This document shows, piece by piece, positions 7,250-26,084 of a DNA stretch of 64,000 nucleotides. Position numbers and translations under genes: made by a program. Source of the DNA: Nitrospirota bacterium. GTDB lineage: Bacteria; Nitrospirota; Thermodesulfovibrionia; Thermodesulfovibrionales; UBA6898. The stretch is taken from positions 119,851 to 183,850 of the forward strand of contig JACRLO010000010.1 of assembly GCA_016235245.1 (NCBI GenBank), given 5' to 3'. The notes below the pieces were generated by a model, which was given only the letters and a program-made list of their open reading frames with translations, ran no database searches and was not told the origin of the DNA. The stretch's first letter is position 1; the number at the start of each line of letters is the position of its first letter.

Positions 7250-8386
7250 TCATGATATATGATGCGAGGGCAGTGATAACCTGAATGTGGTCCCGTCGGC
7301 CCCGGAAGTCGTGAACTCGACCTTTCCACCAAGCACGCTTTCACCAAAGAGTTTCATGGCATAGGTCCCGATGCCGCGTCCATGGTTGCCCTTGGTACTG
7401 AAATGGCGCTGAAAGACCCTCCTCGCCACATCATCGGCAATCGCCTGACGACTCCATACGTGAAACGTCAGATCCGGGTCATGATCAACCCAAAGTTTTA
7501 CGGTGCCGCCATCTTCCGTTGCCTCGAAGGCGTTTGTGAGCATGTTCGTAATTATTCTCAGCACCAGATGCAGATCTGAGCGGACAGGGATGCAGGGAGC
7601 ATCTTCCGGGGAAAACAGTATCTTGTTTTTCGCAGCGCAGTGGCCTGTAAAGACTGCCTGCATCTCCCTGATGACGTCATCAGTCGTGAAGTCCTGCATT
7701 TTGACTGCATACGTCTGCTGGTCCGATTGCGAAAGTGCCCGCTGGATTTCGACTTCTTTTGCCAGGTGACAGGATATCTGCTGTATCTGCCTGGCGAGCC
7801 TGTTCTTGCCTTCCTGATCCTTAAATTCCATCAGTTCGCTCGCTCCCAGCAGAGCCGTGATGGTATTGCTGATGTCGTGAAAGAAGGCGCGCTCCAGAGA
7901 CGCCCGGCTCTCCTCAAGGGTTATGTTCTGTACAAAGAGGAGAAGGAATCGCGTTCCTTCCAGTGATATCGGGCATGACCTGACACGGAGGCAGAGATCT
8001 GTCTGTCTGCCATCCCTGCTGACCGTAGCAACGCATTTCTGCTCCTGCGGTCCATCGGTGGAAAGACTTGTCACAATGGCAATCGCAGCACCGCAGGTTG
8101 AGCAATAACGTGAGGTCCCGCATCCGCCCGGCATATCATGGGCATGGATACACCCGATTGCCTCACCGGGTCTAAGACTGAGTACGCTGCGGGGATCATC
8201 AATACCGATCATATCAAGAAGAGCACTATTGACCGAGAGGATCTGGCGGTGCTCGTTCAAAACGGCAATAAGGCCGCCTACGGTCTTGAGGAGGCCGTCA
8301 ACAACAGGGTTACTGCTCGCTTCGTGGATATCACGATACAATTCTCCTGGCGTTGACCGCTCCGGCGATGCAAAGTGCGTTTCCAT
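7250..8386 (-). CDS. PAS sensor histidine kinase with cysteine-rich PAS domain
   Basis: 378 aa, no membrane segment. A PAS-like domain (about 35-150) contains GCIHAHDMPGGCGTSRYC followed by STCGA, a cysteine signature seen in a group of soluble sensor kinases and suggestive of metal or redox sensing. The phospho-acceptor helix is FFHDISNTITALLG (His170), then an HATPase domain with NMLTNAFEATEDGG (N box) and GRGIGTYAMKL (G box). Start set at ATG 8386 because GAGGAGG lies 7 bp upstream; an in-frame start at 8425 has no such site. No response regulator is adjacent, so it is an orphan kinase here. Confidence 0.85.
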   Translation of the reverse strand: METHFASPERSTPGELYRDIHEASSNPVVDGLLKTVGGLIAVLNEHRQILSVNSALLDMIGIDDPRSVLSLRPGEAIGCIHAHDMPGGCGTSRYCSTCGAAIAIVTSLSTDGPQEQKCVATVSRDGRQTDLCLRVRSCPISLEGTRFLLLFVQNITLEESRASLERAFFHDISNTITALLGASELMEFKDQEGKNRLARQIQQISCHLAKEVEIQRALSQSDQQTYAVKMQDFTTDDVIREMQAVFTGHCAAKNKILFSPEDAPCIPVRSDLHLVLRIITNMLTNAFEATEDGGTVKLWVDHDPDLTFHVWSRQAIADDVARRVFQRHFSTKGNHGRGIGTYAMKLFGESVLGGKVEFTTSGADGTTFRLSLPSHHIS

Positions 8387-9317: not shown

Positions 9318-9761
9318 GTGGAGTGGGTTACGCTGTCGCGGACATCAGCTTTTTTTCTTGCAACGAGCGATGCGCTTGCCAAGAAGGCCCTGCAGGACCA
9401 GAATGAATTCCTTGTTACCTGGTTTCGTATGCTCTTTACGCTTCCGGTCCTTGTCGTTACATTGTTTCTGGTGCCATGGCCACGGCTTGATGCGGACTTC
9501 TACCTGGCATTTTTCGCTGCGCTTCCCCTTGAACTCATCACTGTCATTTTATATATTAAGGCCTTCAAACGTTCTCCTCTGAGCCTGACCATGCCCTTTC
9601 TGGCTCTTACCCCGGTCTTTCTGATAGCGGTCTCCTATGCTGTCCTTGGCGAAAAAGTTTCAGCCGTAGCCTATTTTGTGTTATCCCTTTACCACAAGCA
9701 CAGGGCAGCGGGCATGACCGATCACCTTTTCTGTTACGCTGCCCATAAGAAGTCTTTTTAG
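9318..9761 (+). pseudogene. 3'-truncated EamA/DMT-family transporter remnant
   Basis: From a GTG at 9318 the frame encodes about 120 residues resembling the N-terminal half of an EamA (drug/metabolite transporter) protein: a first helix with ATSDALAKKALQDQNEFLVT, then WFRMLFTLPVLVVTLFLVPW and PLSLTMPFLALTPVFLIAVS-YAVLGEKVS. Similarity ends near 9680, exactly where the convergent uspA gene begins (its stop is at 9681); the rest of the frame is antisense to uspA. Intact EamA proteins of this type are about 280-300 aa, so more than half is missing. The exact start is uncertain. Confidence 0.6.
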
Positions 9762-10535
9762 CCCGGTTCGCCCATGGGACCCCATAATGATAGTATCCGC
9801 TTCCATTTCATCTGTCATATCTATGATCGCCTGCCATGTCTCTGCTTCTCTGACAAAGGCCTGCACCCTGATCCCTGAAGCTTCAGCCTTCTGTTTTGCC
9901 TTGTCCGCATATGATCGGGCCTTGACAACAAGCCTGTCCCAGGCTTCAGGCGATTCCCCGTAAAACTCTGCCGGCATATCAACCACAGACAGGATGATCA
10001 GCTCTCCCCCGTAGGACAGGGCAAAGTCGATAGCCTTTTCCGTTGCAGCGTCACTGTATTTTGATCCGTCCGTTGCGATCAGTATCTTTTGCCAGCCGAC
10101 TGCCGCGTCCTTCGGAACAACAAGAACATCCCTGTGGCTGTATCCGATGACCCTTGCCGTAACACTCCCGACAAGGGCCCGCTCAAGCCTGTGCTGACCT
10201 CTCCTGCCCATGACGATGAGGTCGTAATTTTCAGCATCTGACAGGTCAACGATCCGCTCGTGCGTTTCGCCTTCTTCGCAGACCGTCCTGACCATGATCT
10301 TCGCTCCCACTGCAATACGTGCAGCCTCTGCAAGTGAGTCCTCGCACGGTTTGCGCATCGCTGCCATAACATTACCGACACTCGTCGTATCAAGATCGCC
10401 GAGGTACGGAGGGATGACCGATACCACAGTCATCCAGCATTTTTCATGCTCTGCAAATTTAAAGGATTCGCTGAGCGCATGCATGCTCGACGTCGAGCCG
10501 TCTATGGCAACGAGGATCTTCCGGTATCTGCCCAT
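9681..10535 (-). CDS. Universal stress protein, two tandem UspA domains
   Basis: 284 aa, two UspA domains (about 1-142 and 147-284). Both carry the ATP-binding G-2X-G-9X-G(S/T) pattern: GRRGQHRLERALVGSV and GSHGRTGLKRLLMGSV, so nucleotide binding is expected for both. Last gene of cassette A; its ATG lies 2 bp after the TSUP stop, implying co-translation. The close pairing with an anion exporter suggests the Usp modulates or senses conditions for the transporter, which is inference. The 3' end abuts a truncated transporter gene. Confidence 0.92.
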   Translation of the reverse strand: MGRYRKILVAIDGSTSSMHALSESFKFAEHEKCWMTVVSVIPPYLGDLDTTSVGNVMAAMRKPCEDSLAEAARIAVGAKIMVRTVCEEGETHERIVDLSDAENYDLIVMGRRGQHRLERALVGSVTARVIGYSHRDVLVVPKDAAVGWQKILIATDGSKYSDAATEKAIDFALSYGGELIILSVVDMPAEFYGESPEAWDRLVVKARSYADKAKQKAEASGIRVQAFVREAETWQAIIDMTDEMEADTIIMGSHGRTGLKRLLMGSVTEKVIGHARCPVLVVKG

Positions 10536-10537
10536 GA

Positions 10538-11626
10538 TTACGCCTTTGAGTGGGCAAGTGCTTCCTGATGCTCACGTTGTTCAGCCCTGCGTCCCTGCCA
10601 CATGGCCCGGAGAACGATAAAGGCGCCAAGGGCCAGGGCAAAGATCATTATGCCGAAGCTCGTGCTTTTCAGCATCTTTGTTGTCTGTTCGGTTAATGGT
10701 GAAATGAGGCCAAGCTGGGAAAGATAAACCGGGACCATCAGCGCACGGCTGAACAGCACGATCACCATGATCAGGCCCATTACCACTTTTATCATGAAGG
10801 GTTTGACATAGGTGGTGCCCATTGCACCAAGCTGAATGCCGAAGAGCGAGCCGCCAAGAATGATCATGGCAAGCCGGATATCAACCATGCCGTGAAGCGC
10901 ATACTTGAACGAGCCGCCAAGTCCCATCACAAACGCGATGACAAGCTCGGTTGCCGAGGCCATGAGACTCGGTGCGCCAAGCACATAGATCATGGAAGGA
11001 ACGCCGACAAAGCCTCCTACTGCAATCGTTGCGGCAAGAACGCCTGTTGCAAAACCGAGCGGTATGGTGAAGAGGATCGATATCCTTGCATTCAGACTTT
11101 TGAAATATACCATGGTGCCGGGGATGTTGACTGACTGGACCCATTTCGCCAGTTTGGTCATCTTCTCTTCTGCATGCATATTCCCTGACTTGTACGTCTT
11201 CCAGGCATCTCTGAGTACAAAGATGCCTACAACGGCGAGTACCACCACAAAGGAAACGCTGACATAGAGGTTTGACCCTGCATCACCGAAAGCTTTTTTA
11301 ATACTCTCCTGGATATGCGCTCCGTAAAGAACGCCGGCCTCTGCTGAAACGCCGAGGGCAATACCGAGCTTTACATCGACCTGACCATATTTGGCTCTCT
11401 TAATGGCTCCGACCAATGCCTTCGGAAATTTGTGGCACATATTACTTGCCACTGCCACGAGTGCCGGCACGCCCATGCTCATCATGCCTGGGGTAAGGAC
11501 GAATGCTCCTCCTGAGCCGATAAATCCGCTGACAAGGCCTCCTACAAAACCGACAAGAAACAGATATATGATGGTTATCGCATCAAGGTTTATGAAATTC
11601 GCTGCTGTTTGGGCTAAATCGTGCAT
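10538..11626 (-). CDS. TSUP (TauE/SafE) family transporter, cassette A
   Basis: 362-aa polytopic inner-membrane protein with about eight to nine hydrophobic segments. The two TSUP half-repeats show as SGFIGSGGAFVLTPGMM (N-terminal) and AATIAVGGFVGVPSMIYV (C-terminal). Family members export sulfite, sulfonates or related sulfur anions; the substrate cannot be read from sequence. An extended cytoplasmic loop (about residues 125-180) separates the halves. GAGGTTAAG precedes the ATG at 11626, overlapping the end of the upstream small membrane protein gene. Confidence 0.9.
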   Translation of the reverse strand: MHDLAQTAANFINLDAITIIYLFLVGFVGGLVSGFIGSGGAFVLTPGMMSMGVPALVAVASNMCHKFPKALVGAIKRAKYGQVDVKLGIALGVSAEAGVLYGAHIQESIKKAFGDAGSNLYVSVSFVVVLAVVGIFVLRDAWKTYKSGNMHAEEKMTKLAKWVQSVNIPGTMVYFKSLNARISILFTIPLGFATGVLAATIAVGGFVGVPSMIYVLGAPSLMASATELVIAFVMGLGGSFKYALHGMVDIRLAMIILGGSLFGIQLGAMGTTYVKPFMIKVVMGLIMVIVLFSRALMVPVYLSQLGLISPLTEQTTKMLKSTSFGIMIFALALGAFIVLRAMWQGRRAEQREHQEALAHSKA

Positions 11627-11629
11627 GTC

Positions 11630-11887
11630 TTACTTAACCTCCATTTTCTTTTTTGATGCCTCAACTCCAAGCATCGTCCAGAAATGACCGGTAAAGGTGC
11701 CGTGGAAGTATGAGAAGATAAACGCCGCGATAATCGGCAGGAAGGCAAAGAGCCCGCCTTTGCCGAAGGTGTTATTGAGGAAATCCTGATTTAAGAGTAA
11801 CGCGATATACAGTCCGGCGGAAACCAGGCCGGTCAAGATCAGGGGTGTCACAGGTTTCTTTCTTTTTTTCTGCTCGATTGATGTCAT
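11630..11887 (-). CDS. Small two-helix membrane protein of cassette A
   Basis: 85 aa from ATG 11887, which has GGAGG about 4 bp upstream. The N-terminus is basic (MTSIEQKKRKKPVTPL), followed by two membrane helices (LILTGLVSAGLYIALLL; GLFAFLPIIAAFIFSYFHG) and a short lysine-rich tail. No family recognised. Sits 3 bp upstream of the TSUP gene, so an accessory subunit of that transporter is plausible. A longer upstream in-frame start would overlap the 58-aa gene and has no ribosome-binding site. Confidence 0.75.
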   Translation of the reverse strand: MTSIEQKKRKKPVTPLILTGLVSAGLYIALLLNQDFLNNTFGKGGLFAFLPIIAAFIFSYFHGTFTGHFWTMLGVEASKKKMEVK

Positions 11888-11900
11888 TGTTCCTCCGTTA

Positions 11901-12077
11901 TTATGAGCGTGATTCCTGCAGGGGCTGCTGCTTCCAAAGTTCCGGTCTGTCGGAGAGTTTCCTGTCCTGGCTTTCTTCTTCCTGCAGGAATTCCCGCGCT
12001 GTTGTGTGTTCATTTTCCTCTGCGAATGTTACTGCTGCCATAAGCCTGTCAAACTTGCTCAATACTGATGTTTTCAT
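11901..12077 (-). CDS. 58-aa protein with a 'MAAVTFAEENE' motif
   Basis: Minus-strand ATG at 12077 preceded by GGAG (GGAGATCATC), 58 codons, TAA at 11901-11903. The product begins MKTSVLSKFDRLMAAVTFAE and ends with an acidic/polar tail (LQEEESQDRK...). It is soluble, with no membrane segment. The segment LMAAVTFAEENE recurs inside the two Usp-like proteins of cassettes A (IMAAATFAEADD) and B (IMSAVAFAEENE), so this gene looks like a stand-alone copy of that module. It lies 14 bp downstream of the Usp-like gene and 13 bp upstream of the small membrane protein gene. Function unknown. Confidence 0.72.
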   Translation of the reverse strand: MKTSVLSKFDRLMAAVTFAEENEHTTAREFLQEEESQDRKLSDRPELWKQQPLQESRS

Positions 12078-12091
12078 GATGATCTCCTTTT

Positions 12092-12577
12092 TTATATTAG
12101 GGCCGTTGCCGGCCTTGAGATATGAACGATGGGTTTTGCAATATTTCTCAGAAGCCTTTTTATATCAAGTGAGTTCATTTTTTCTGACAGTGAAGGGCTT
12201 AAGAGCACCATATCTATGAATGCTTTTTCTTTCAGAATCGCCTTTATTGCAGCTGCTACGTCTCCATCAGCCGCATGACAGAGCAGATCGACAGAGACAA
12301 TCTGAGCTTTATTGGATAACTCCCTGATCCTACCCTCGAGTTTTTCCCTGCAGTTGCTCTGTTGACACTCCATAATCTCTTTTGCGGTTTTCATGTCATC
12401 TGCCTCGGCGAACGTGGCTGCGGCCATGATATCTTCGAAATTGTCCGCAAGATGTATTGGCCTCATGATCAGTGCTTCAACGCTTGCATCAAGCGTTTTT
12501 GCGAGTTCCAGGACATAGGAGAAGCCTTCATCGCAGTGCTCACCTCCCTTGGTTACGAATAAGATCGTATCTTTCAT
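12092..12577 (-). CDS. Degenerate Usp-like protein, first gene of cassette A
   Basis: 161 aa from ATG 12577, preceded by AAGGAGATAGGGAA. The fold pattern is Usp-like (ILFVTKGGEHCDEGFSYVLELA at the start, ending KPIVHISRP), but the C-terminal loop reads LLSPSLSEKMNSLDIKRLL and lacks the glycine-rich ATP-binding signature. The middle holds an inserted helix with FEDIMAAATFAEADDMKTAK, shared with the cassette B paralogue at 19213-19686. A -24/-12 promoter lies 38 bp upstream. Probably a non-nucleotide-binding sensory or adaptor Usp. Confidence 0.78.
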   Translation of the reverse strand: MKDTILFVTKGGEHCDEGFSYVLELAKTLDASVEALIMRPIHLADNFEDIMAAATFAEADDMKTAKEIMECQQSNCREKLEGRIRELSNKAQIVSVDLLCHAADGDVAAAIKAILKEKAFIDMVLLSPSLSEKMNSLDIKRLLRNIAKPIVHISRPATALI

Positions 12578-12682: not shown

Positions 12683-12700
12683 TGTTTCATACTGAAACAG
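12683..12700. promoter_or_regulatory. Palindromic upstream activator site, cassette A
   Basis: TGTTTCATACTGAAACAG, with a perfect GTTTCA-TAC-TGAAAC inverted repeat, 55 bp upstream of the -24 element. A second TGAAACAG half site starts 11 bp after the first (12704-12711). The same TGTTT-N8-AACAG pattern occurs twice upstream of cassette B. Likely binding site of the NtrC-type regulator at 13212-14540, by inference; it could also serve the divergent DUF202 gene. Confidence 0.6.
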
Positions 12701-13211: not shown

Positions 13212-14540
13212 TTACTTCTTCAGAATTCTCCAGAGGCTGGTGCGCGAAATACCGAGGAGTTCGGCTGCCTTTGAGCGGTTGTTGTCTACGAAATCAAGAA
13301 TCCTCTCTGCATAATCCCTGTTCAGTTCATCGATCGTCCTGACCCTGTTGGGTGAAATGGTCTCGACCTCGAAAAGCTTAATGGTCTGAGGAAGGTTGCC
13401 GGGCTGAATTGTTGCGGACTTTTCGAGTATGACCGCTCTTTCGATGATATTTTCGAGTTCTCTTACATTACCAGGAAAGCCGTAGGAGATCAGAATATCC
13501 AGGGCCTCTTTGCTGAACGCGGTTATTTTCTTGTTCTCTTTCTTCGCATACTTCTGCAGAAAATGTTTGATAAGGGGTGTAATGTCTTCTCTTCGTTCCC
13601 TGAGGGGCGGAATAAATATATCCATGACATTGAGGCGGTAATAAAGATCTTCCCTGAATTTACCTTCCTTGATCATCGCCGAAAGATTCTGGTTTGTAGC
13701 GGCGATAAGCCTGACATCAACCTTGATCGAGCGTGTCCCTCCTACGCGCATGAATTCTTTGTCTTCGATGACTTTCAGGAGTTTGGCCTGGAGCGAGGGC
13801 GTCATTTCCGCGATCTCATCCAGGAAGAGAGTCCCGGTGTCCGCCACCTCGATCAGTCCCTTTTTCGAAAATGCTGCGCCGGTAAAAGCTCCTTTTTCGT
13901 GGCCGAAAAGTTCGCTGGCAAGAAGCTCTTCGGTGAAGATGGCACAGTTGAGGCCGAGAAATGGTTTATCTCCCCGGGCGCTCGTATGATGGATCATCCT
14001 TGCGACAAGTCCTTTCCCGACGCCGCTTTCGCCGGTAAGCAGTACATTGCAGTCGGAATTGGTGATGCTCCTGATCACCTCGACAACGCGCTGCATGGTA
14101 TGGCTTTTTGCGATGAACGGAAATTCCTGATCGATGCCGAGGGTGACTTTAAGTGCGGTGTTCTCTTTTTCTATCCTTTTTTTTTCCAGGACTTTCCTGA
14201 TCTTGAGATTCAGTTCGTCAAGATTAAAAGGTTTGGTCACATATTCTGATGCACCTTTTTTCATGGCGGCAATTGCAGATTCAATGCTGCCAAAACCGGT
14301 GATGATGATCACTTCTGCGTCGGGCTCCTTCGTCTTGATCTTTTCAAGCAGCGTCAGTCCGTCCATGCCCGGCATCTTGATATCCGCAATGATCACGTCA
14401 TAGAAGTTTGCTTCGAAAAGGGCGAACGCAGATATGCCGTCTTTTGTGCCGGTGACTTCATAGCCTTCCTTTTCGAGGGCATACGCAAGGTGCTTCAGGG
14501 ATATTGCTTCATCCTCTGCTATCAATATTCTCTGGCTCAT
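13212..14540 (-). CDS. NtrC-family sigma-54-dependent response regulator
   Basis: 442 aa: receiver domain (1-120, phospho-acceptor Asp53 in DVIIADIKMPGMDG), AAA+ sigma-54 activator domain (about 140-370) and a Fis-type helix-turn-helix ending RSKAAELLGISRTSLWRILK. The AAA+ part has Walker A GESGVGKG, the sigma-54 contact loop GAFTGA, Walker B GTLFLDEI and the arginine finger region FREDLYYRLNV. All hallmarks of an active enhancer-binding protein are intact. The gene overlaps its kinase gene by 4 bp (ATGA). It lies between two cassettes with -24/-12 promoters and a shared palindrome, its likely targets. Confidence 0.95.
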   Translation of the reverse strand: MSQRILIAEDEAISLKHLAYALEKEGYEVTGTKDGISAFALFEANFYDVIIADIKMPGMDGLTLLEKIKTKEPDAEVIIITGFGSIESAIAAMKKGASEYVTKPFNLDELNLKIRKVLEKKRIEKENTALKVTLGIDQEFPFIAKSHTMQRVVEVIRSITNSDCNVLLTGESGVGKGLVARMIHHTSARGDKPFLGLNCAIFTEELLASELFGHEKGAFTGAAFSKKGLIEVADTGTLFLDEIAEMTPSLQAKLLKVIEDKEFMRVGGTRSIKVDVRLIAATNQNLSAMIKEGKFREDLYYRLNVMDIFIPPLRERREDITPLIKHFLQKYAKKENKKITAFSKEALDILISYGFPGNVRELENIIERAVILEKSATIQPGNLPQTIKLFEVETISPNRVRTIDELNRDYAERILDFVDNNRSKAAELLGISRTSLWRILKK

Positions 14541-16096
14541 ACTCCTCCGGGCAGCGTAATCAGAAAGGTCGAGCCTTTCTCTGATGTATTTTTCAGTTCG
14601 ATCCTGCCTTTATGTTTCTCCAGTATACTGTACACAATGGCAAGGCCCAGGCCTGTTCCGTGGTCCTTGGTGGTGAAAAAAGGATCGAAAATTCTCTGGA
14701 GCTTTTCCTCGGGGATTCCCTTGCCCGTATCTGAGACCGCGATCTTTACCCGGGGACCGTCGCGGTCAATCGTAATGGTCAGCAGCCCCTTGCCTTCCAT
14801 CGCGTCAACGGCATTATTGAACAGGTTGATGAAGACCTGCTCCATCATGTGACTGTCAGCCAGGACCGTGGCATCCTCCCGCGCCTGGACTTCGTAGCGG
14901 ACGTCTCCCAGATCGTCGGTCGCCGCCATCTGGGTCAGTAAACCCTTGATCAGGACGGTGATCTGGACCGGGGCAAGCTCTGGAGGCTTTTCGCGCGCAA
15001 AGGCAAGGAGGTCGCTCACGATTCTTTTTACCCTCAGCGTCTGCGAATAGATATCCCCGACGGTTTCTTTTATGATTCCGGGACAGGTCTCGGCATCGAT
15101 CTCCTTTGTGAGGATCTGCGCTGCAAGATAGATATTGTTGAGCGGATTGTTCAGCTCATGGGCGACCCCTGAGGCAAGCGTCCCCAGAGAGGCAAGCTTC
15201 CGGCCCTGGAGCAACTCCTCGTTCTTTTTTTCGATCTCGTGGTCTCTTTCGATAAGGTCGTTTTCCATTTTGTTAAAGGCACTGATCAGGACACCGACTT
15301 CGTCATGCTTGGCCGGGACCGGGAGGGAAGAAAAATCCCCTTTGCCGGCTTTTTCGATAGCGCTCGTGAGCATCTTCATCTGGTTGACTGCGCTGCGGAC
15401 AATCCCAAATAATGCGGTAAAGCCGACGACAAGAAAGAGCGGGAACAGAATAAGAAGTGCGGTCTGCGAAAGTCTGACCGTGCGGTCAACCTTTTCCCGT
15501 GTCACGGTGTCAAGGCCCTTTGAGAGCGTCAGGATCTCCTCGCTGCCGATCTTTCGAAGCGCGGTCAACTCGGTATCCAGATCCCTGAGGTTACCCAGGA
15601 TTGCCGATTCTGATCCCGGCTTAAACAGGATCTCGATCTGCCTGGCATTGACGGCAGGGCTTTCGAGAAATGTTGCCTCCATGAGCGGGAAAAAGATCGC
15701 ATAGTGTGTGTTGCGGGCCTTCAGTTTTCCTATATTGTCGAGAAATTCCCATGAAAGGGTTTCGATCCTGCTGAAGCGCCGTTCGTAATCCTCAATGCTT
15801 GCCTGAAGGTTGCGTATCTGTCCATTGGTATCAAGGTGCTTATTCTGTTGAAGGATGTCCTTGATCTCTTTGATATAACTATGGACGCTTTCGATCTCGC
15901 GCACATCCCTGTACAGGAGGAAATTCTTTTCGTGGCGCCGGAGCTGGAGCGTTTTGCTGCGAAGCGTATCGGACAATTCAAGATTCCGTATCTCTTTTCT
16001 GATCTCGATAAAGTTCACATATGCGAAGATCGCCAAAATGGCTATGAGCGTAGAACTGATCAGAAAACTGAGAATGATCTTCTTCTGCAGGGACAT
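14537..16096 (-). CDS. Membrane sensor histidine kinase partner of the NtrC-type regulator
   Basis: 519 aa. TM1 about 8-28, a periplasmic helical domain of about 170 residues, TM2 about 205-228, a HAMP domain, a short coiled coil, then HisKA with VAHELNNPLNNIYLAAQIL (phospho-acceptor His313) and HATPase with NLFNNAVDAMEGKG and GTGLGLAIVYSIL. The periplasmic part is mostly helical, and I do not recognise a ligand motif. Being translationally coupled to the sigma-54 regulator, it should control its phosphorylation in response to an envelope or extracellular signal. Confidence 0.93.
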   Translation of the reverse strand: MSLQKKIILSFLISSTLIAILAIFAYVNFIEIRKEIRNLELSDTLRSKTLQLRRHEKNFLLYRDVREIESVHSYIKEIKDILQQNKHLDTNGQIRNLQASIEDYERRFSRIETLSWEFLDNIGKLKARNTHYAIFFPLMEATFLESPAVNARQIEILFKPGSESAILGNLRDLDTELTALRKIGSEEILTLSKGLDTVTREKVDRTVRLSQTALLILFPLFLVVGFTALFGIVRSAVNQMKMLTSAIEKAGKGDFSSLPVPAKHDEVGVLISAFNKMENDLIERDHEIEKKNEELLQGRKLASLGTLASGVAHELNNPLNNIYLAAQILTKEIDAETCPGIIKETVGDIYSQTLRVKRIVSDLLAFAREKPPELAPVQITVLIKGLLTQMAATDDLGDVRYEVQAREDATVLADSHMMEQVFINLFNNAVDAMEGKGLLTITIDRDGPRVKIAVSDTGKGIPEEKLQRIFDPFFTTKDHGTGLGLAIVYSILEKHKGRIELKNTSEKGSTFLITLPGGV

Positions 16097-16180: not shown

Positions 16181-16600
16181 TCAGGCGCCTACTACCAATA
16201 CCGGACAGGGGGACTGATGAATCACTTTGCCGACCGTGTTGTCGCCGAAGATCCCTCTCAGCCAGCTCCGCTTTTTTGCTCCCATGACGATCACATCACA
16301 CCGTTCCTCCCCGGCTACTTCGAGGATCTTTTGTGAGGCATCGCCTTCCTCGATCCTTGTTTTGACCATTACTCCTTCCGTATCGGCAAGCTTTCTGATT
16401 TCGGCAGCTTCGAGCCGGGACCCGTTGTCGAGCACGTCCGCGATATTCTTTATCCCAACGAGGTTCAGATCGCCTTCGTTGGGCGGCAGGACCTTGACTA
16501 CCGTTATCCAGCATTTTTCATCGCAGGCCAGGTTGATCCCCTGCGAGAGCACTTCTTTCGAGCCCTTTATTGCGATTAGGACTTTTCTGTAGCCTTTCAT
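16181..16600 (-). CDS. Single-domain universal stress protein with altered ATP loop
   Basis: 139 aa from ATG 16600 (GAGGTGA 6 bp upstream); a GTG at 16609 overlapping the upstream stop is less likely. It has the Usp fold pattern (YRKVLIAIKGSKEVLSQG ... CPVLVVGA), but the nucleotide loop reads GAKKRSWLRGIFGDNTVGKV, so the second glycine of the G-2X-G signature is replaced. Its N-terminal half is related to that of the tandem Usp of cassette A (both contain KCW-(M/I)-TVV). Last gene of cassette B. Confidence 0.88.
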   Translation of the reverse strand: MKGYRKVLIAIKGSKEVLSQGINLACDEKCWITVVKVLPPNEGDLNLVGIKNIADVLDNGSRLEAAEIRKLADTEGVMVKTRIEEGDASQKILEVAGEERCDVIVMGAKKRSWLRGIFGDNTVGKVIHQSPCPVLVVGA

Positions 16601-16605
16601 TGCAT

Positions 16606-17463
16606 TCACCTCACTACCAGAATTGGACAGGCTGCATTCATGATGACCCGTTCTGTTGTGCTGCCTAAAATTGCCTTATTCACTCCGTGGTATCCGTGGC
16701 TGCCCATAACGATCAGGTCGTGCTTCTGCTCTTTGGCCATCTCCACAATACGGTCAGGAGCGTGACCTTCGGATACGTGTGTGTTTACTGTTGTTCCCTG
16801 GAGCAGCGCAAATTCTTTTGCAGATTTTGTTATCTTCTCCGCTTCCTGCATCATGCTGCTGCGGATCGAATCTGTCTTGAAGAATTCAAGCATCTCCTCA
16901 TAGCGGGGGATAACGTAGAGAACGGTAACCGAACTATGGTCCTGTTTAGCGATCTCGCAGGCACGCTTCACTGCCAGTTTGCTGAAGTCCGACCCATCAT
17001 AGGGCACAAGGATAGATGCATATTCTCCTGTGCATTCGGTGCAGGGTTTCTTTACAACAAGCACATCAGTCGCAGCTCCTGCTATAACTCCAGTGGTAAC
17101 GCTTCCCATCAGCAGCCTGTTCAGACCTTTCCTTCCGTAGGTGCCAAGGACAATAAGGTCTGCCTTCTTCCCCTGTGCAACGTCGAGGATCACCTCCACA
17201 GGATCGCCTTCGCAGAGCAGCGACTGCACCTCTATGCCGAATTCTGAAGCGACCATCTCCTTTGATTGCATGCATACTTTATTTCCGATTGTGAGCCTTT
17301 TGTCGAGCTGCTCGGGAGCTATGCCGAACTCCTCGGAATCGAAGAAGACCGCATGCACCATGATTACGCTGCCGCCTTGCCTGCGGGCTCTATTGGATGC
17401 CTCGATGAGAGCTGCCTTGCTCGACGGCGAATCATCGAAACCTACTACCATTGTTTCATACAT
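16606..17463 (-). CDS. Universal stress protein, two tandem UspA domains, cassette B
   Basis: 285 aa from ATG 17463 (MYETMVVGFDDSPSSKAAL), which follows the upstream stop by 2 bp; GGAGGTG precedes it. Two UspA domains with intact ATP signatures, GTYGRKGLNRLLMGSV and GSHGYHGVNKAILGSTTERV. A CTEC motif (about 148-151) joins the domains. Longer upstream in-frame sequence is antisense-like Arg-rich noise inside the preceding gene and was excluded. Confidence 0.92.
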   Translation of the reverse strand: MYETMVVGFDDSPSSKAALIEASNRARRQGGSVIMVHAVFFDSEEFGIAPEQLDKRLTIGNKVCMQSKEMVASEFGIEVQSLLCEGDPVEVILDVAQGKKADLIVLGTYGRKGLNRLLMGSVTTGVIAGAATDVLVVKKPCTECTGEYASILVPYDGSDFSKLAVKRACEIAKQDHSSVTVLYVIPRYEEMLEFFKTDSIRSSMMQEAEKITKSAKEFALLQGTTVNTHVSEGHAPDRIVEMAKEQKHDLIVMGSHGYHGVNKAILGSTTERVIMNAACPILVVR

Positions 17464-17465
17464 GA

Positions 17466-18251
17466 TTAATGCGCACCTCCACCCTGTCTGAAGACCAGGC
17501 CGACGCCAAAGCCTGCGCCAAGAGCAGAGAGGATCGAGAGCAGACCGTACAGGGCCGCACTGTTCTTTGCCATGCCTGCAAGGGTCTTTACCACTCCTGC
17601 CTGTTCCACCTGCACCTTTGAGACTGCCTGGTCTACCACCTTGCCGTCTTTCACCGCGTATACGGTCACGATATAATCTCCGGGAGGCGCCTGATACGGC
17701 CACTGCGTCAGGATGTAGTATGACTGTTTGCCGTCCTTCTCCTTCAGCTCAATCTTGCCGTCAGTTGTGCTGTAGAGTTTTGATTGTTCTTTGTACTTGA
17801 TGAATTCACTGAACCATTTTTCTTTTTCCACAGCATTAGCAATGGGCTCGATTGCTGCATGCCTGCCGAGTGCAGGATACCCGACAACATATTTATCCAT
17901 CTCATCCCTGCTGATCAGGTCCTCAAGTTTCCTGGTGCTGTGGATGGAATAGAGGTTCGGCACATATTCGAAATTCATGGTCTCGACGTTCATCCAGAGA
18001 ATGCCGCCGACCTTGCCCTTTTCCTTCAGCGCTTCATGACCTTCCGGAGAAGCAATCTTGATGATGAGGTCAGTGCCGGGGTCAGTGATGCCGCTGACGC
18101 TTACCGTGCTGCCGTGGTAGAAGAAGTCGATATTGATATGGTCATGGTTGGCCTTAGCGGTCAGTTCCGCCGATGCCGTGCCGATGCATGCAAGCATGCT
18201 GATAACGATGAGTATCGGTTTTATTATATTTACGCTGATCACTGCTTTCAT
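17466..18251 (-). CDS. TIGR02186-family membrane-anchored protein
   Basis: 261 aa: signal peptide (to about TASA at 27), a periplasmic beta-rich domain with FFYHGSTVSVSGITDPGTDL, a second domain containing PYQAPPGDYIVTVYAVKDGK, and a C-terminal membrane helix (LYGLLSILSALGAGFGVGLVF). This matches the TIGR02186/Alph_Pro_TM family, which commonly sits next to TSUP exporters. Function unproven; an extracytoplasmic partner of the transporter is likely. AGGAGG lies 8 bp before the ATG. Confidence 0.82.
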   Translation of the reverse strand: MKAVISVNIIKPILIVISMLACIGTASAELTAKANHDHINIDFFYHGSTVSVSGITDPGTDLIIKIASPEGHEALKEKGKVGGILWMNVETMNFEYVPNLYSIHSTRKLEDLISRDEMDKYVVGYPALGRHAAIEPIANAVEKEKWFSEFIKYKEQSKLYSTTDGKIELKEKDGKQSYYILTQWPYQAPPGDYIVTVYAVKDGKVVDQAVSKVQVEQAGVVKTLAGMAKNSAALYGLLSILSALGAGFGVGLVFRQGGGAH

Positions 18252-18252
18252 T

Positions 18253-19182
18253 TTAGTGTCCTCCTGCCTGTGATAAGAGTAATGATGGGGTGAGCGTCAG
18301 ATCGAAGACGATTTTGACCGTGACCACCAAAACGATTATCGCGAGTATTATTTTGAGCTGTTCGCCCTTGAGTTTTCTGCCGAAGACCGCTCCGACCTGT
18401 GCTCCGACCGTTGAACCGATCAAAAGCAGCACCGCAAGGATAAAATCGACACTGTGGTTTGTGTACGCCTGAAGAAACGTAACCTCGATGCAGTTAAAGA
18501 GGATCTGGAAGAGGCTTGTCCCGACCACCACATGCATCGGCATCCTGAGGATGTAGATCATGACCGGGACCATCAGGAACCCGCCGCCGACACCCATGAG
18601 CGCTGCGAGCACACCGACAAAGCCGCCGAAAATGATCGGAAGGAGCATTGAGTGTGTCACGCCTGATTTTTCATAACGTGTCTGAAGAGGCAGGGATTGT
18701 AAAAACCGGGTAAAGGCATTGCTTTTCTCTTCTGTCGATTTTGCTGTTTCAATCTGGTTCTTGCTCTTGCGGAGGGCGCTGAGGCTCTCGATAAACATAT
18801 AGGTGCCGACAGAGCCTAACATCAGCACATAGGTCATTTTGATCACAAAATCGGCATTCCCCATGGCCTTGAGTATCTTGATCGCCTGCACGCCGAGCAG
18901 GCCGCCGATGAAGCCGCCGATAAGGAGATGGACCCCCATCTTGAAATCGACATTGCCGACTTTCCAGTGTGCGTACGTACCTGATGTAGAAGCTGCCACG
19001 ATCTGATTCGAATCCGTTGCCGCTGCTACGGTTGAGGGTATGCCGAGCATAATGAGAAGCGGTGTCATAAGAAAGCCCCCGCCGACCCCGAACAGGCCTG
19101 AGAGCAGGCCGACAGCCAGCCCGAGTCCGACCGGGATGAGAATATTTACGCTGGTGAGTGCTACCGGCAGATACAGATACAT
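18253..19182 (-). CDS. TSUP (TauE/SafE) family transporter, cassette B
   Basis: 309 aa from ATG 19182, which has GGAGGAG about 8 bp upstream. Two half-repeats with signatures SGLFGVGGGFLMTPLLIMLG and AALMGVGGGFLMVPVMIYIL; about eight membrane helices and a central cytoplasmic loop (about 135-180). This is the more typical TSUP architecture of the three in the window. Predicted export of a sulfur-containing or other small anion; substrate not determinable. Confidence 0.92.
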   Translation of the reverse strand: MYLYLPVALTSVNILIPVGLGLAVGLLSGLFGVGGGFLMTPLLIMLGIPSTVAAATDSNQIVAASTSGTYAHWKVGNVDFKMGVHLLIGGFIGGLLGVQAIKILKAMGNADFVIKMTYVLMLGSVGTYMFIESLSALRKSKNQIETAKSTEEKSNAFTRFLQSLPLQTRYEKSGVTHSMLLPIIFGGFVGVLAALMGVGGGFLMVPVMIYILRMPMHVVVGTSLFQILFNCIEVTFLQAYTNHSVDFILAVLLLIGSTVGAQVGAVFGRKLKGEQLKIILAIIVLVVTVKIVFDLTLTPSLLLSQAGGH

Positions 19183-19212
19183 CAATCAAACTCCTCCTTT
19201 ATGGTGTTGTAA

Positions 19213-19686
19213 TTATGCGGTTTGCGGCTGCTTTGCCATGGTCACGATCGGCCGCGATGCTGTCCTTACCAGTCTGCTCAGTTGCCGTGAAGACAGGTTT
19301 CCGTCTTCTGTAATGTTCGGGCTCAGAAGCACCATGTCCACGCTGCTGTTGCTCTTCAGATAATCTTTCAGCGAAGTCGCAGCATCCTGGACCGCGGTAT
19401 AGATTGCGGTTGTTACCCCCGAGGTCCTGCACGTTTCTTCGATGGCGTCCTTGATGTCAGTCCTGTCTTCGTCTGACGTCATAATCTGCTGCGCTATTGC
19501 AGGCTCGTTCTCCTCTGCGAAGGCGACCGCTGACATGATGTCCTCGATCTTCTTTGATAACTTCTTCTTGTTCACCAAAAGCACGGCCATGTTCTTGTCC
19601 ATCATCTTTGCAAGATCAAGGGCATAGGTAAGACCCTCGTCAAGTCCTCCTTCTTTGTACGCTACAAATAATAGATTTCGTTTCAT
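19213..19686 (-). CDS. Degenerate Usp-like protein, first gene of cassette B
   Basis: 157 aa, paralogue of the first gene of cassette A: same opening (NLLFVAYKEGGLDEGLTYAL), same inserted helix IEDIMSAVAFAEENEPAIAQ, same ending region VDMVLLSPNITED...RPIVTMAK. The glycine-rich ATP loop is absent. AAGGAGG precedes the ATG at 19686, and a -24/-12 promoter starts 38 bp upstream. Confidence 0.8.
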   Translation of the reverse strand: MKRNLLFVAYKEGGLDEGLTYALDLAKMMDKNMAVLLVNKKKLSKKIEDIMSAVAFAEENEPAIAQQIMTSDEDRTDIKDAIEETCRTSGVTTAIYTAVQDAATSLKDYLKSNSSVDMVLLSPNITEDGNLSSRQLSRLVRTASRPIVTMAKQPQTA

Positions 19687-24055: not shown

Positions 24056-25303
24056 CTATTCCTCCCCTCTGAGTTTGCCGATATTAAGAAAGAATTTGCT
24101 CATGACCCAGATGCCGAAGATACTTACCACGATCCAGAAGATGATGTTGCCGGCAAATTCGATGTTGGTCACGACTGACTTTGACATGGAAATATATTCG
24201 AGTTCTACCATCTTCTTTGGCAGGGTGCTTACCCTGTTGATGAAGCCGGCAATGATCGAGACCGCATAGAAGCCGAGGATATGTGTGCCTTTAACGACCT
24301 TTGTTACGAGCGCGCCGACCTGGATGCCGATGAGTGATCCGATCAGCATGCCCATCGCAAGCGTGTAGAAAACATAGCCATAGATGGCATACTGGGCGAT
24401 TGATGCAAGTCCTGCCGTAAATATGATCTGCAGGATGTCAGTGCCGACGGTCGTTCCTGCAGAGACGCCGAAGACGTATACGAACATGGGGAAGGTGACG
24501 AAGCCGCCGCCTACGCCCATGATCGCTGCAAGCATACCGACTACGAAGCCCCCCATGATCAGGAAGATGGCAGATATCTTTTTGCCGCCTACCACAAGGT
24601 GTTCGTCAAACGTGATGTAAGGAGGGATCTTGACAGACTGGACTTTCATGGCCAGTGCCGGTGTCGTGTCTGGTCCGCTGTGTGCACCGCCGTCACCGCT
24701 TTTCTTGGTTGATCTCATGAAGTCAATGAAGGCATAGAAGCCGAGAAACCCAAGCAAAACAGCGTAGACCGTGCTGATGAAAGCCTCGCTCAGCAAGGGG
24801 TCCTTGTTATAGAGTGCCTTGTTGATTGCGCCGCCGACAAAGGTTCCGACGCCTGAGCCGACCAGAAACCATACGGCAAGCTTGACAGAGACGTTACCCA
24901 GTTTTCTGTGGACTGTCGTTCCCATGATCGCCTTGGCGAATATGTGAAATACGTCCGTGCCGACTGCGAGTATGCCTTTCACGCCGGCAGCCATAAGGGC
25001 CGGGGTGATGATAAAGCCTCCTCCTGCACCGATACAGCCGGTGATGAGGCCTGCAGCGAGACCCACTGCAATGGATACCATAAAGATGAGATTGGAATAG
25101 TGTGCCGGAGCATACGCTGTCTTGCCTCCGATCATGTCTGCGGCGTTCAGCGATGAGACCACCAGGATCGGCAGTATCATTACCAGCAGCAGCAGCAGCT
25201 TTTTGCGGTTCTTCAGGATGTTCATGGAGACTTCGAAGTCCCATTTGGCATAGGCAACAGAACCTGCCATGAGAAACTCGTACAACCTTCGCGGAAAACT
25301 CAT
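24056..25303 (-). CDS. TSUP (TauE/SafE) family transporter, cassette C
   Basis: 415 aa from ATG 25303, which has AAGGAGG 8 bp upstream. An N-terminal amphipathic stretch (MSFPRRLYEFLMAGSVAYAK) and an extra membrane segment (KKLLLLLVMILPILVVSSL) precede the TSUP core with signatures TGCIGAGGGFIITPALMAAG and AAIMGVGGGFVTFPMFVYVF. Longer than the cassette A and B transporters because of this extension and a large middle loop. 19 bp downstream of the gntR stop. Confidence 0.9.
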   Translation of the reverse strand: MSFPRRLYEFLMAGSVAYAKWDFEVSMNILKNRKKLLLLLVMILPILVVSSLNAADMIGGKTAYAPAHYSNLIFMVSIAVGLAAGLITGCIGAGGGFIITPALMAAGVKGILAVGTDVFHIFAKAIMGTTVHRKLGNVSVKLAVWFLVGSGVGTFVGGAINKALYNKDPLLSEAFISTVYAVLLGFLGFYAFIDFMRSTKKSGDGGAHSGPDTTPALAMKVQSVKIPPYITFDEHLVVGGKKISAIFLIMGGFVVGMLAAIMGVGGGFVTFPMFVYVFGVSAGTTVGTDILQIIFTAGLASIAQYAIYGYVFYTLAMGMLIGSLIGIQVGALVTKVVKGTHILGFYAVSIIAGFINRVSTLPKKMVELEYISMSKSVVTNIEFAGNIIFWIVVSIFGIWVMSKFFLNIGKLRGEE

Positions 25304-25322
25304 AGTAAAACCTCCTTGTGTA

Positions 25323-26084
25323 TTATCTGAGTCGTTCAAATTCAGACTGAAATTTATAGCTGTCGCTTCGGCCCTGCAGCTTGGTATAGGCGACAGGTGT
25401 GTTGTCAGAACTGAGAAGCAATCTGTGCACAACCAGCACGGAGACGTTTTCTTCAAGGTCAAGGTATCGTGCTGCATCCCCTGTTGCCTGAGACACTTCA
25501 ACCGTCTGGATAACTTTAAAGATCTTTTTCAGGGCCTTTTCCTGAAGAAAGAAATAGAGCGATACTCCTGCGATATCAAGGCGGTCTATCTCAGGGGTAA
25601 TGCGGTATGGGATGAAGGATTCGTCGACATACGCCGGGTGTCCGTTAAGAAGTCTTCTGCTGAGCATATAATAAATATCTCCGTCAGTCTTCAGATAGGA
25701 CCGGATGTCCGGAGCAGGCTCCTTAATCCCCCTGAACAGGAGTTCCTTTTCTGCTTTCACCTCCTTTCCAAACATTTCTTCGGTAAATATCGTTCTCATG
25801 GCAACGCCCACGACCGGCAGGACGCTTGTGACAAAGGTCCCCTTGCCCTGGATCTTCATGAGGTAACCGTCTGCGGTGAGGTTATTGATGGCCTGACGGA
25901 CCGTGATCTTGCTGATGTTATAGGTCCTGCTCAGCTCATCCTCTGAGGGGATCCTGTCGTTGAGCTTCCAGTTGCCTGAGTTGATCTCCTCAAGAAGGAT
26001 CCTGGTAAGCTGGATGTAGAGCTTCTCCTGATTGAATCTGTCTACTGTTTTAGATTGAGACAGTGATGTTTCAGAATGGATCAT
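25323..26084 (-). CDS. GntR/HutC-family transcriptional regulator
   Basis: 253 aa: N-terminal winged helix (about 20-88) with RIPSEDELSRTYNISKITVRQ and GYLMKIQGKGTFV, then a UTRA ligand-binding domain (about 105-245; ending in a typical VVHRLLLSSDNTPVAYTKL stretch). UTRA regulators sense small effectors such as sugars, amino acids or sulfur compounds. First gene of cassette C and probably autoregulatory: an 18-bp near-palindrome overlaps its -10 region. Confidence 0.9.
   Translation of the reverse strand: MIHSETSLSQSKTVDRFNQEKLYIQLTRILLEEINSGNWKLNDRIPSEDELSRTYNISKITVRQAINNLTADGYLMKIQGKGTFVTSVLPVVGVAMRTIFTEEMFGKEVKAEKELLFRGIKEPAPDIRSYLKTDGDIYYMLSRRLLNGHPAYVDESFIPYRITPEIDRLDIAGVSLYFFLQEKALKKIFKVIQTVEVSQATGDAARYLDLEENVSVLVVHRLLLSSDNTPVAYTKLQGRSDSYKFQSEFERLR

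Follow-up and report, generated by a model that had tools for sequence, protein, structure and literature searches.

To our knowledge, neither the regulation of TSUP transporters nor, for the most part, their substrates are known. Short targeting tags on unrelated enzymes are familiar as the encapsulation peptides of bacterial microcompartments. Universal stress proteins (Usp) act on transporters in several described pairs, namely TeaD with TeaABC, UspC with KdpD and Rv2623 with Rv1747 (PMC5549992). TSUP transporters are abundant, and the Firmicutes and Nitrospirae examples in a table of sulfate reducers have 8–12 (PMC5840216).

The window (the whole 64,000-nucleotide stretch of DNA that was analysed) contains a minus-strand operon which combines the two kinds of protein. 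It starts with a degenerate Usp-like protein of 161 aa (12092–12577), followed by a 58-aa stand-alone module microprotein, or solo (11901–12077), an 85-aa membrane protein (TM85, 11630–11887), a TSUP transporter (TauE/SafE, 10538–11626, PF01925, E 4.8e-35) and a tandem universal stress protein (9681–10535, PF00582, E 7.2e-66), which has canonical ATP motifs (G-2x-G-9x-GS) in both halves. Upstream of the operon, at 16096–13212, genes for a histidine kinase (14537–16096, minus) and an NtrC-type (sigma54) response regulator (13212–14540, minus) were assigned based on their ORFs and family clustering. TM85 is a constant companion of the adjoining TSUP type and has no Pfam or NCBIfam match. Of 396 genomes, 103 have it, and 93 of these hold the module described below as well.

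A second cluster lies on the same strand. Its Usp-like protein of 157 aa (19213–19686) has the same architecture as the product of 12092–12577, based on the ORF, BLASTP and alignment, and a second TSUP gene (18253–19185, PF01925, E 1.6e-51) directly follows it. Then come a membrane protein of the Alph_Pro_TM / TIGR02186 type (17466–18251; PF09608, E 1.5e-51; TIGR02186 below its own cut-off), a universal stress protein assigned by sequence and clustering (16606–17703), the true start of which is probably internal, and a single-domain universal stress protein (16181–16609, PF00582, E 4e-22). It is worth noting that two small membrane proteins outside any known family, the 85-aa protein at 11630–11887 (minus) and one of about 137 aa (cluster c9, e.g., L102:12058–12471), accompany particular TSUP types. 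They are candidate TSUP subunits.

The earlier note on this DNA had placed a 58-aa ORF at 11901–12077 without giving its strand. The coordinates were right, and the gene is on the minus strand, with an ATG at 12077 and a stop at 11901; the plus-strand frame of the region has three stops. An AGGAG ribosome site (Shine–Dalgarno) at 12084–12088 lies 6 nt before the ATG. The gap from the stop of the upstream Usp-like gene is 14 nt, and the gap to the downstream gene of the 85-aa membrane protein is 13 nt. The recurrence of the motif in the two larger proteins was likewise found again: BLASTP aligned the 58-aa protein with the product of 12092–12577 at E = 3e-7 (16/37 identical) and with that of 19213–19686 at E = 7e-7 (12/28 identical), and a whole-genome profile search recovered both. 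The ORF is kept across genera and was seen in 6 named relatives, with 67% protein identity to the counterpart in L034, and free copies are present throughout the phylum. According to the earlier note, neutral evolution would speak against the gene. The values obtained are not neutral (dN 0.17/dS 0.55 against L034; dN 0.10/dS 0.89 for the free copies of L037 and L039), and the 58-aa gene is under purifying selection. In the protein, hairpin residues 8–32 are followed by a basic, Pro/Arg-rich C-terminal tail, and a basic tail of the type RPxxRKxLRA is recurrent in free copies.

A profile of 34 columns built on the module (A1) was run against the whole 3.25-Mb genome and returned exactly four copies at E ≤ 5. 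Three of them lie on the minus strand of the window, in the 58-aa protein (11967–12062, E 4.8e-17), inside the Usp-like protein (12350–12451, E 5.8e-16) and in the 19213–19686 protein (19462–19560, E 1.2e-13). The fourth is on a different contig (L003, E 1.1e-12), where it makes up the C-terminal end of a response-regulator receiver, the gene of which is directly upstream of another TSUP gene. TSUP genes adjoin all four copies; the genome has roughly seven TSUP loci. Given the BLASTP E values and just four profile matches in the genome, the similarity is well beyond chance. Within the phylum, the module was detected in 128 of 396 sampled genomes (E ≤ 1e-3, scores up to 72 bits), and the named relatives that carry it are 'Nitrospirae', 'Nitrospiraceae' and 'Thermodesulfovibrionales' MAGs.

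Based on a survey of 60 regions around the matches, together with the window and the named relatives, five architectures were distinguished: free; internal in Usp-like proteins; N-terminal in Usp-like proteins; C-terminal in receivers (L003, L166 and L174); and inserted in a PPDK-like enzyme. The free microproteins have about 50–110 aa with one or two module copies each, and a free module gene is present in most TSUP_A operons. One 165-aa protein has three copies. Tandem copies are spaced by 37–53 residues, and some genomes hold a single module. In the PPDK_N/PEP-utilizers protein of 887–888 aa, the module occupies residues 190–219. Genes for PPDK-like proteins with an insert in the N-terminal part were found at L123:3829–6492 (−), L104:11004–13670 (−) and L127:12649–15315 (+); in L123 and L127, the gene is downstream of TSUP–TIGR02186 and adjoins a second PPDK-like gene. 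The module is a portable unit of 34 residues common to microproteins, Usp-like proteins without the ATP motif, receivers and a PPDK-like enzyme. The scope given in the earlier note, which covered the free copy and the Usp-like proteins alone, was therefore too narrow.

No Pfam or NCBIfam model covers the module. The best match in a PDB sequence profile search was an unconvincing antitoxin fragment (E 0.059), and Foldseek with the 58-aa model gave no significant match. Among plasmid records, the query with an N-terminal module in a Usp-like protein found nothing, and the internal-module query matched in the Usp region alone (E 0.2–0.5). GenBank phages gave no match.

An AF2 model of the 58-aa protein, based on an alignment of 7 sequences, has helices at residues 8–20 and 24–32 and a disordered tail, with pLDDT of about 83–86 over residues 11–30 and a mean of 66. 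The hairpin is predicted in both contexts, the 58-aa protein and the Usp-like protein. Judging by the mean pLDDT of 66, the lone hairpin may be unstable on its own. Across 152 copies, A15, E16 and F/Y14 are conserved at 100%, A11 at 99%, G18 at 94% and A23 at 90%, and the invariant Ala–Glu pair (A15–E16) closes helix A in every copy. Module residues A11, F14, G18, A23 and L/M27 correspond to positions 8, 11, 15, 20 and 24 of a tetratricopeptide-type (TPR) helix-turn-helix hairpin, the pattern A/F/G/A/(L,M) being present in the 152 copies. TPR_4 of Pfam matched 14 of 36 solos weakly, below the cut-off, and the three-module protein matched TPR_4/6/14 at about 1e-4, also below the cut-offs (TPR_4, 23.2 of 27 bits). 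The Pfam TPR search found no match in the 58-aa protein, and none of the proteins tested reached a Pfam TPR gathering score (PF00515/PF07721 clan). A tandem array of 34-residue repeats was not found, as there is usually one copy. Based on the models, a single helix-turn-helix hairpin of TPR-like type is the most likely structure of the module; since the TPR matches are weak and stay under the cut-off, this is a description and not a family assignment. In TPRs, positions 12 and 13 face the ligand and are variable. Because the invariant A15 and E16 occupy these positions, we infer a binding face there.

The Usp-like hosts depart from canonical universal stress proteins. For the product of 12092–12577, the AF2 model (mean pLDDT 76.6) has the order β1–α1–β2, a helix at 47–58, a helix at 62–93, then β3 onward. 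In this model the module is inserted after β2, and its second helix continues into α2 of the Usp fold. The earlier note had described one inserted helix midway through the Usp fold; the insertion is seen in the model, and it comprises two helices between β2 and α2. The best Foldseek match was the Usp 4wny (E 5.7e-7), and TeaD, of a TRAP transporter, was found at E 3.3e-5. The Usp α/β fold is supported by AF2 and Foldseek for this protein and by alignment alone for that of 19213–19686. The Pfam Usp model (PF00582) gave 16.8 of the required 24 bits for the former and no match for the latter. The ATP motif G-2x-G-9x-G[ST] is absent from the 12092–12577 protein and from all 82 module-bearing proteins of 120–260 aa, whereas 80 of 101 module-free Usps have kept it. 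Canonical Usps are frequent at module loci, being missing in 11 of 68.

Gain and loss of the module were read from regions of genomes in which TM85 or TIGR02186 operons occur and no module was detected. In L142, L148, L149 and L154, an orthologous Usp-like protein without the hairpin occupies the same operon position, and in L143 and L144 the orthologue has a decayed module. Since orthologues without the module hold the same operon position, the module is a true insertion, and the Usp fold can do without it.

The genomic context of the module is dominated by TSUP. A TSUP gene lies within 3 kb of 136 of 153 module genes, on the same strand in all 136, and 124 of the 153 lie upstream of it by no more than 1.5 kb; the chance expectation for such proximity is roughly 1–2%, an estimate from about eight TSUP genes in 3.2 Mb. 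The adjoining TSUPs are of several types, with TM85, TIGR02186, a 245-aa protein or a 137-aa protein as companions, and module genes are found directly upstream of four different types. TSUP/TM85 operons without any module also occur. Outside TSUP loci, a free module comes first in L155:1–4135 (−), from the same genus as the window, and in L162:3961–7204 (+), where it is followed by a CysH-like PAPS/APS reductase, Sbp, Usp and CysT, with CysW additionally in L155; these gene sets are apparent assimilatory sulfate operons. In L160:3958–6495, L161:3815–5198 and L163:4191–6165 (all +), a module microprotein or ORF is directly upstream of chrB; chrA comes next in L160 and L163, and L161 and L163 have Usp genes close by. 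A similar chrB-like gene in L165 was assigned by sequence resemblance alone. Chromate is an analogue of sulfate. The common theme of the module loci is oxyanion transport plus Usp; the narrower reading as sulfur oxyanions we infer from the cys and chr exceptions and from family knowledge of TSUP. In its distribution, the module goes with genes for TSUP, sulfate-ABC and chromate transport, and not just with the two Usp-like proteins of the earlier note.

It should be noted that the window also holds a module-free TSUP, with a GntR-type regulator gene upstream of it at 25323–26084 (−). L158 and L164 each have a free module ahead of a similar GntR gene. The cytosolic N-terminus of TSUP481 (24056–25501) and its relatives, RRxFEFLKMAS..HAKWDYEVSMSILKNRKK, looks module-like by eye; the profile-profile probability was 0.8%, and it was therefore not counted. 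This N-terminus is strictly conserved among orthologues, and the genes of the subfamily are usually followed by one for a 245-aa membrane protein without a Pfam match.

Upstream of the module operon, at 12683–12699 (+), there is an exact palindrome, TGTTTCA-N3-TGAAACA. The best match to the palindrome within 450 bp upstream of the first module gene had two mismatches or fewer in 29 of 100 module operons, versus 0.7% of 1196 background windows. Operons with solo or N-module genes often have the variant TGTTGCA-N3-TGCAACA. The sequence is probably an operator at which the co-encoded NtrC-type (sigma54) regulators act, the one encoded here being the obvious candidate to bind it, and related regulators probably control different TSUP operons. 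A search near the operon for the strict sigma54 −24/−12 consensus found none above chance.

A free module of 51 aa was also found on the IMG/VR phage contig L139 (IMGVR_UViG_3300032365_000044) at 7980–8135 on the plus strand. It has a GGAGG ribosome site and is oriented against its neighbours in a moron-like manner; the contig also encodes a portal protein (phrog_213) and a thymidylate kinase. This copy fits a free module acting in trans, and as a single contig it is weak evidence.

Based on the above results, we suggest that the module is a tag by which proteins dock on a shared partner, and that the free 58-aa copy is a trans-acting adaptor or competitor, a proposal to which we give about an even chance. 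A shared interaction surface was already suggested in the earlier note, and this idea is favoured by the portability of the module, the module-free Usp-like orthologues, and the free genes in most TSUP_A operons and on the phage contig. Because helix A ends in an invariant Ala–Glu pair at ligand-facing TPR positions, every tagged protein probably meets the same kind of partner. This partner would be soluble and would recognise the tag via the Ala–Glu face of helix A. The tag could then assemble a layer that senses stress or phosphorylation (pseudo-Usp, receiver) on the partner, and this layer would set the activity or expression of the transporter, as is reported of TeaD for TeaABC. The free copy, a product of the operon itself, would be a trans-acting adaptor or competitor at the same site and may thereby set the gain of the system. 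Tentatively, and as something possible rather than probable, the module may be a dedicated docking code that has spread in the lineage and addresses a hub; this hub would bring the transport of oxyanions (sulfate/sulfite/chromate) into line with signals from stress and phosphorelays, the microprotein would be a regulator of this hub, and the phage copy would interfere with it or hijack it. Co-presence of the module in the two main operon types of a genome was also considered as a sign of a shared partner (53/5/0/3, Fisher p 0.0016) and was discarded, as the losses fall mostly in one family and are non-independent.

The constant presence of TSUP, the nearest neighbour of most module genes, and the position of module genes directly upstream of four TSUP types would also be expected if the hairpin docked directly on the cytosolic face of TSUP (or on TM85) and gated it, the free copy being a minimal inhibitor or activator subunit. 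However, the module also occurs with the unrelated sulfate ABC transporter (sbp/cysT/cysW) and with ChrA, which would require a single surface to match several folds, and TSUP/TM85 operons exist without it. Since unrelated transporters share the tag, direct binding to TSUP becomes less likely, and we regard it as unlikely. The hairpins could instead recognise each other by TPR-like stacking, the free copy capping or bridging those of the Usp-like proteins and receivers of its operon. The 47 adjacent solo/Usp-like pairs, the proteins with two or three tandem copies and the TPR-like residues, which make hairpins apt to stack, agree with this, as does the slightly greater likeness of solo/Nmod partners within a locus (0.568 versus 0.537 for other loci; permutation p 0.004). 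But the solo/Imod pairs have no such excess (p 0.64); being weak in one class and absent in the other, coevolution of solo and Usp-like modules within a locus was not retained as a signal. Moreover, the tandem spacing is unlike that of a TPR solenoid, and several genomes hold a single module, so pairing between different proteins is not obligatory. Homotypic stacking is thus quite unlikely in our judgement.

Two further explanations dispense with a dedicated partner or with a distinct module. Being short, acidic and often terminal, the module might be a stability helix or a regulated degron, and the survival of orthologues without it agrees with such a role. Invariant residues of surface type (A15 and E16), conserved free-standing genes and the restriction to transport operons are unexpected in a generic element of this kind, and the explanation appears improbable. 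That the module is an ordinary fragment of a TPR protein, or a chance similarity of short helices, is suggested by the weak Pfam TPR matches. This can hardly be true: the profile finds just four copies in the genome at E ≤ 5, all linked to transport, and therefore does not match ordinary TPR proteins, and the conservation goes beyond the TPR consensus (A–E, T22 and R24).

With a tag on the regulatory proteins of TSUP operons, and a microprotein version of this tag, there is a handle for finding the control hub. The tag also helps with the annotation of hundreds of small 'hypothetical' ORFs, possibly missed by gene callers, and the orthologues with and without the insert are a natural experiment on the gain and loss of a docking element. 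In the literature searched, typical module strings were absent, and TauE/SafE, universal stress proteins and two-component systems were never joined. The hairpin type is known, and its use as a shared tag in an oxyanion-transport setting appears to be undescribed in the literature and databases searched.

Compared with known systems, the module resembles encapsulation peptides in being a short helical element found at N-termini, at C-termini and internally on unrelated co-encoded proteins; unlike them, it also exists as a conserved gene of its own, and the gene maps here contain no shell or microcompartment genes. With the TPR hairpin (PF07721 and relatives) it shares two helices and small, aromatic, Gly and Ala residues at positions 8, 11, 15 and 20. 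It differs in being a single hairpin rather than a repeat array, in staying below every Pfam cut-off, in its invariant Ala–Glu at positions 12–13, in being without the canonical residues at 27 and 32, and in a tandem spacing of 37–53 residues versus 34. The closest functional parallel is with TeaD of Halomonas elongata (3HGM), UspC–KdpD and Rv2623–Rv1747, where, as here, a protein of the Usp fold is encoded beside a transporter or acts on one. In contrast to these, the present Usp-like protein has lost the ATP motif and contains a hairpin insert, of which a free copy is encoded alongside, and the transporters are TSUP-type.
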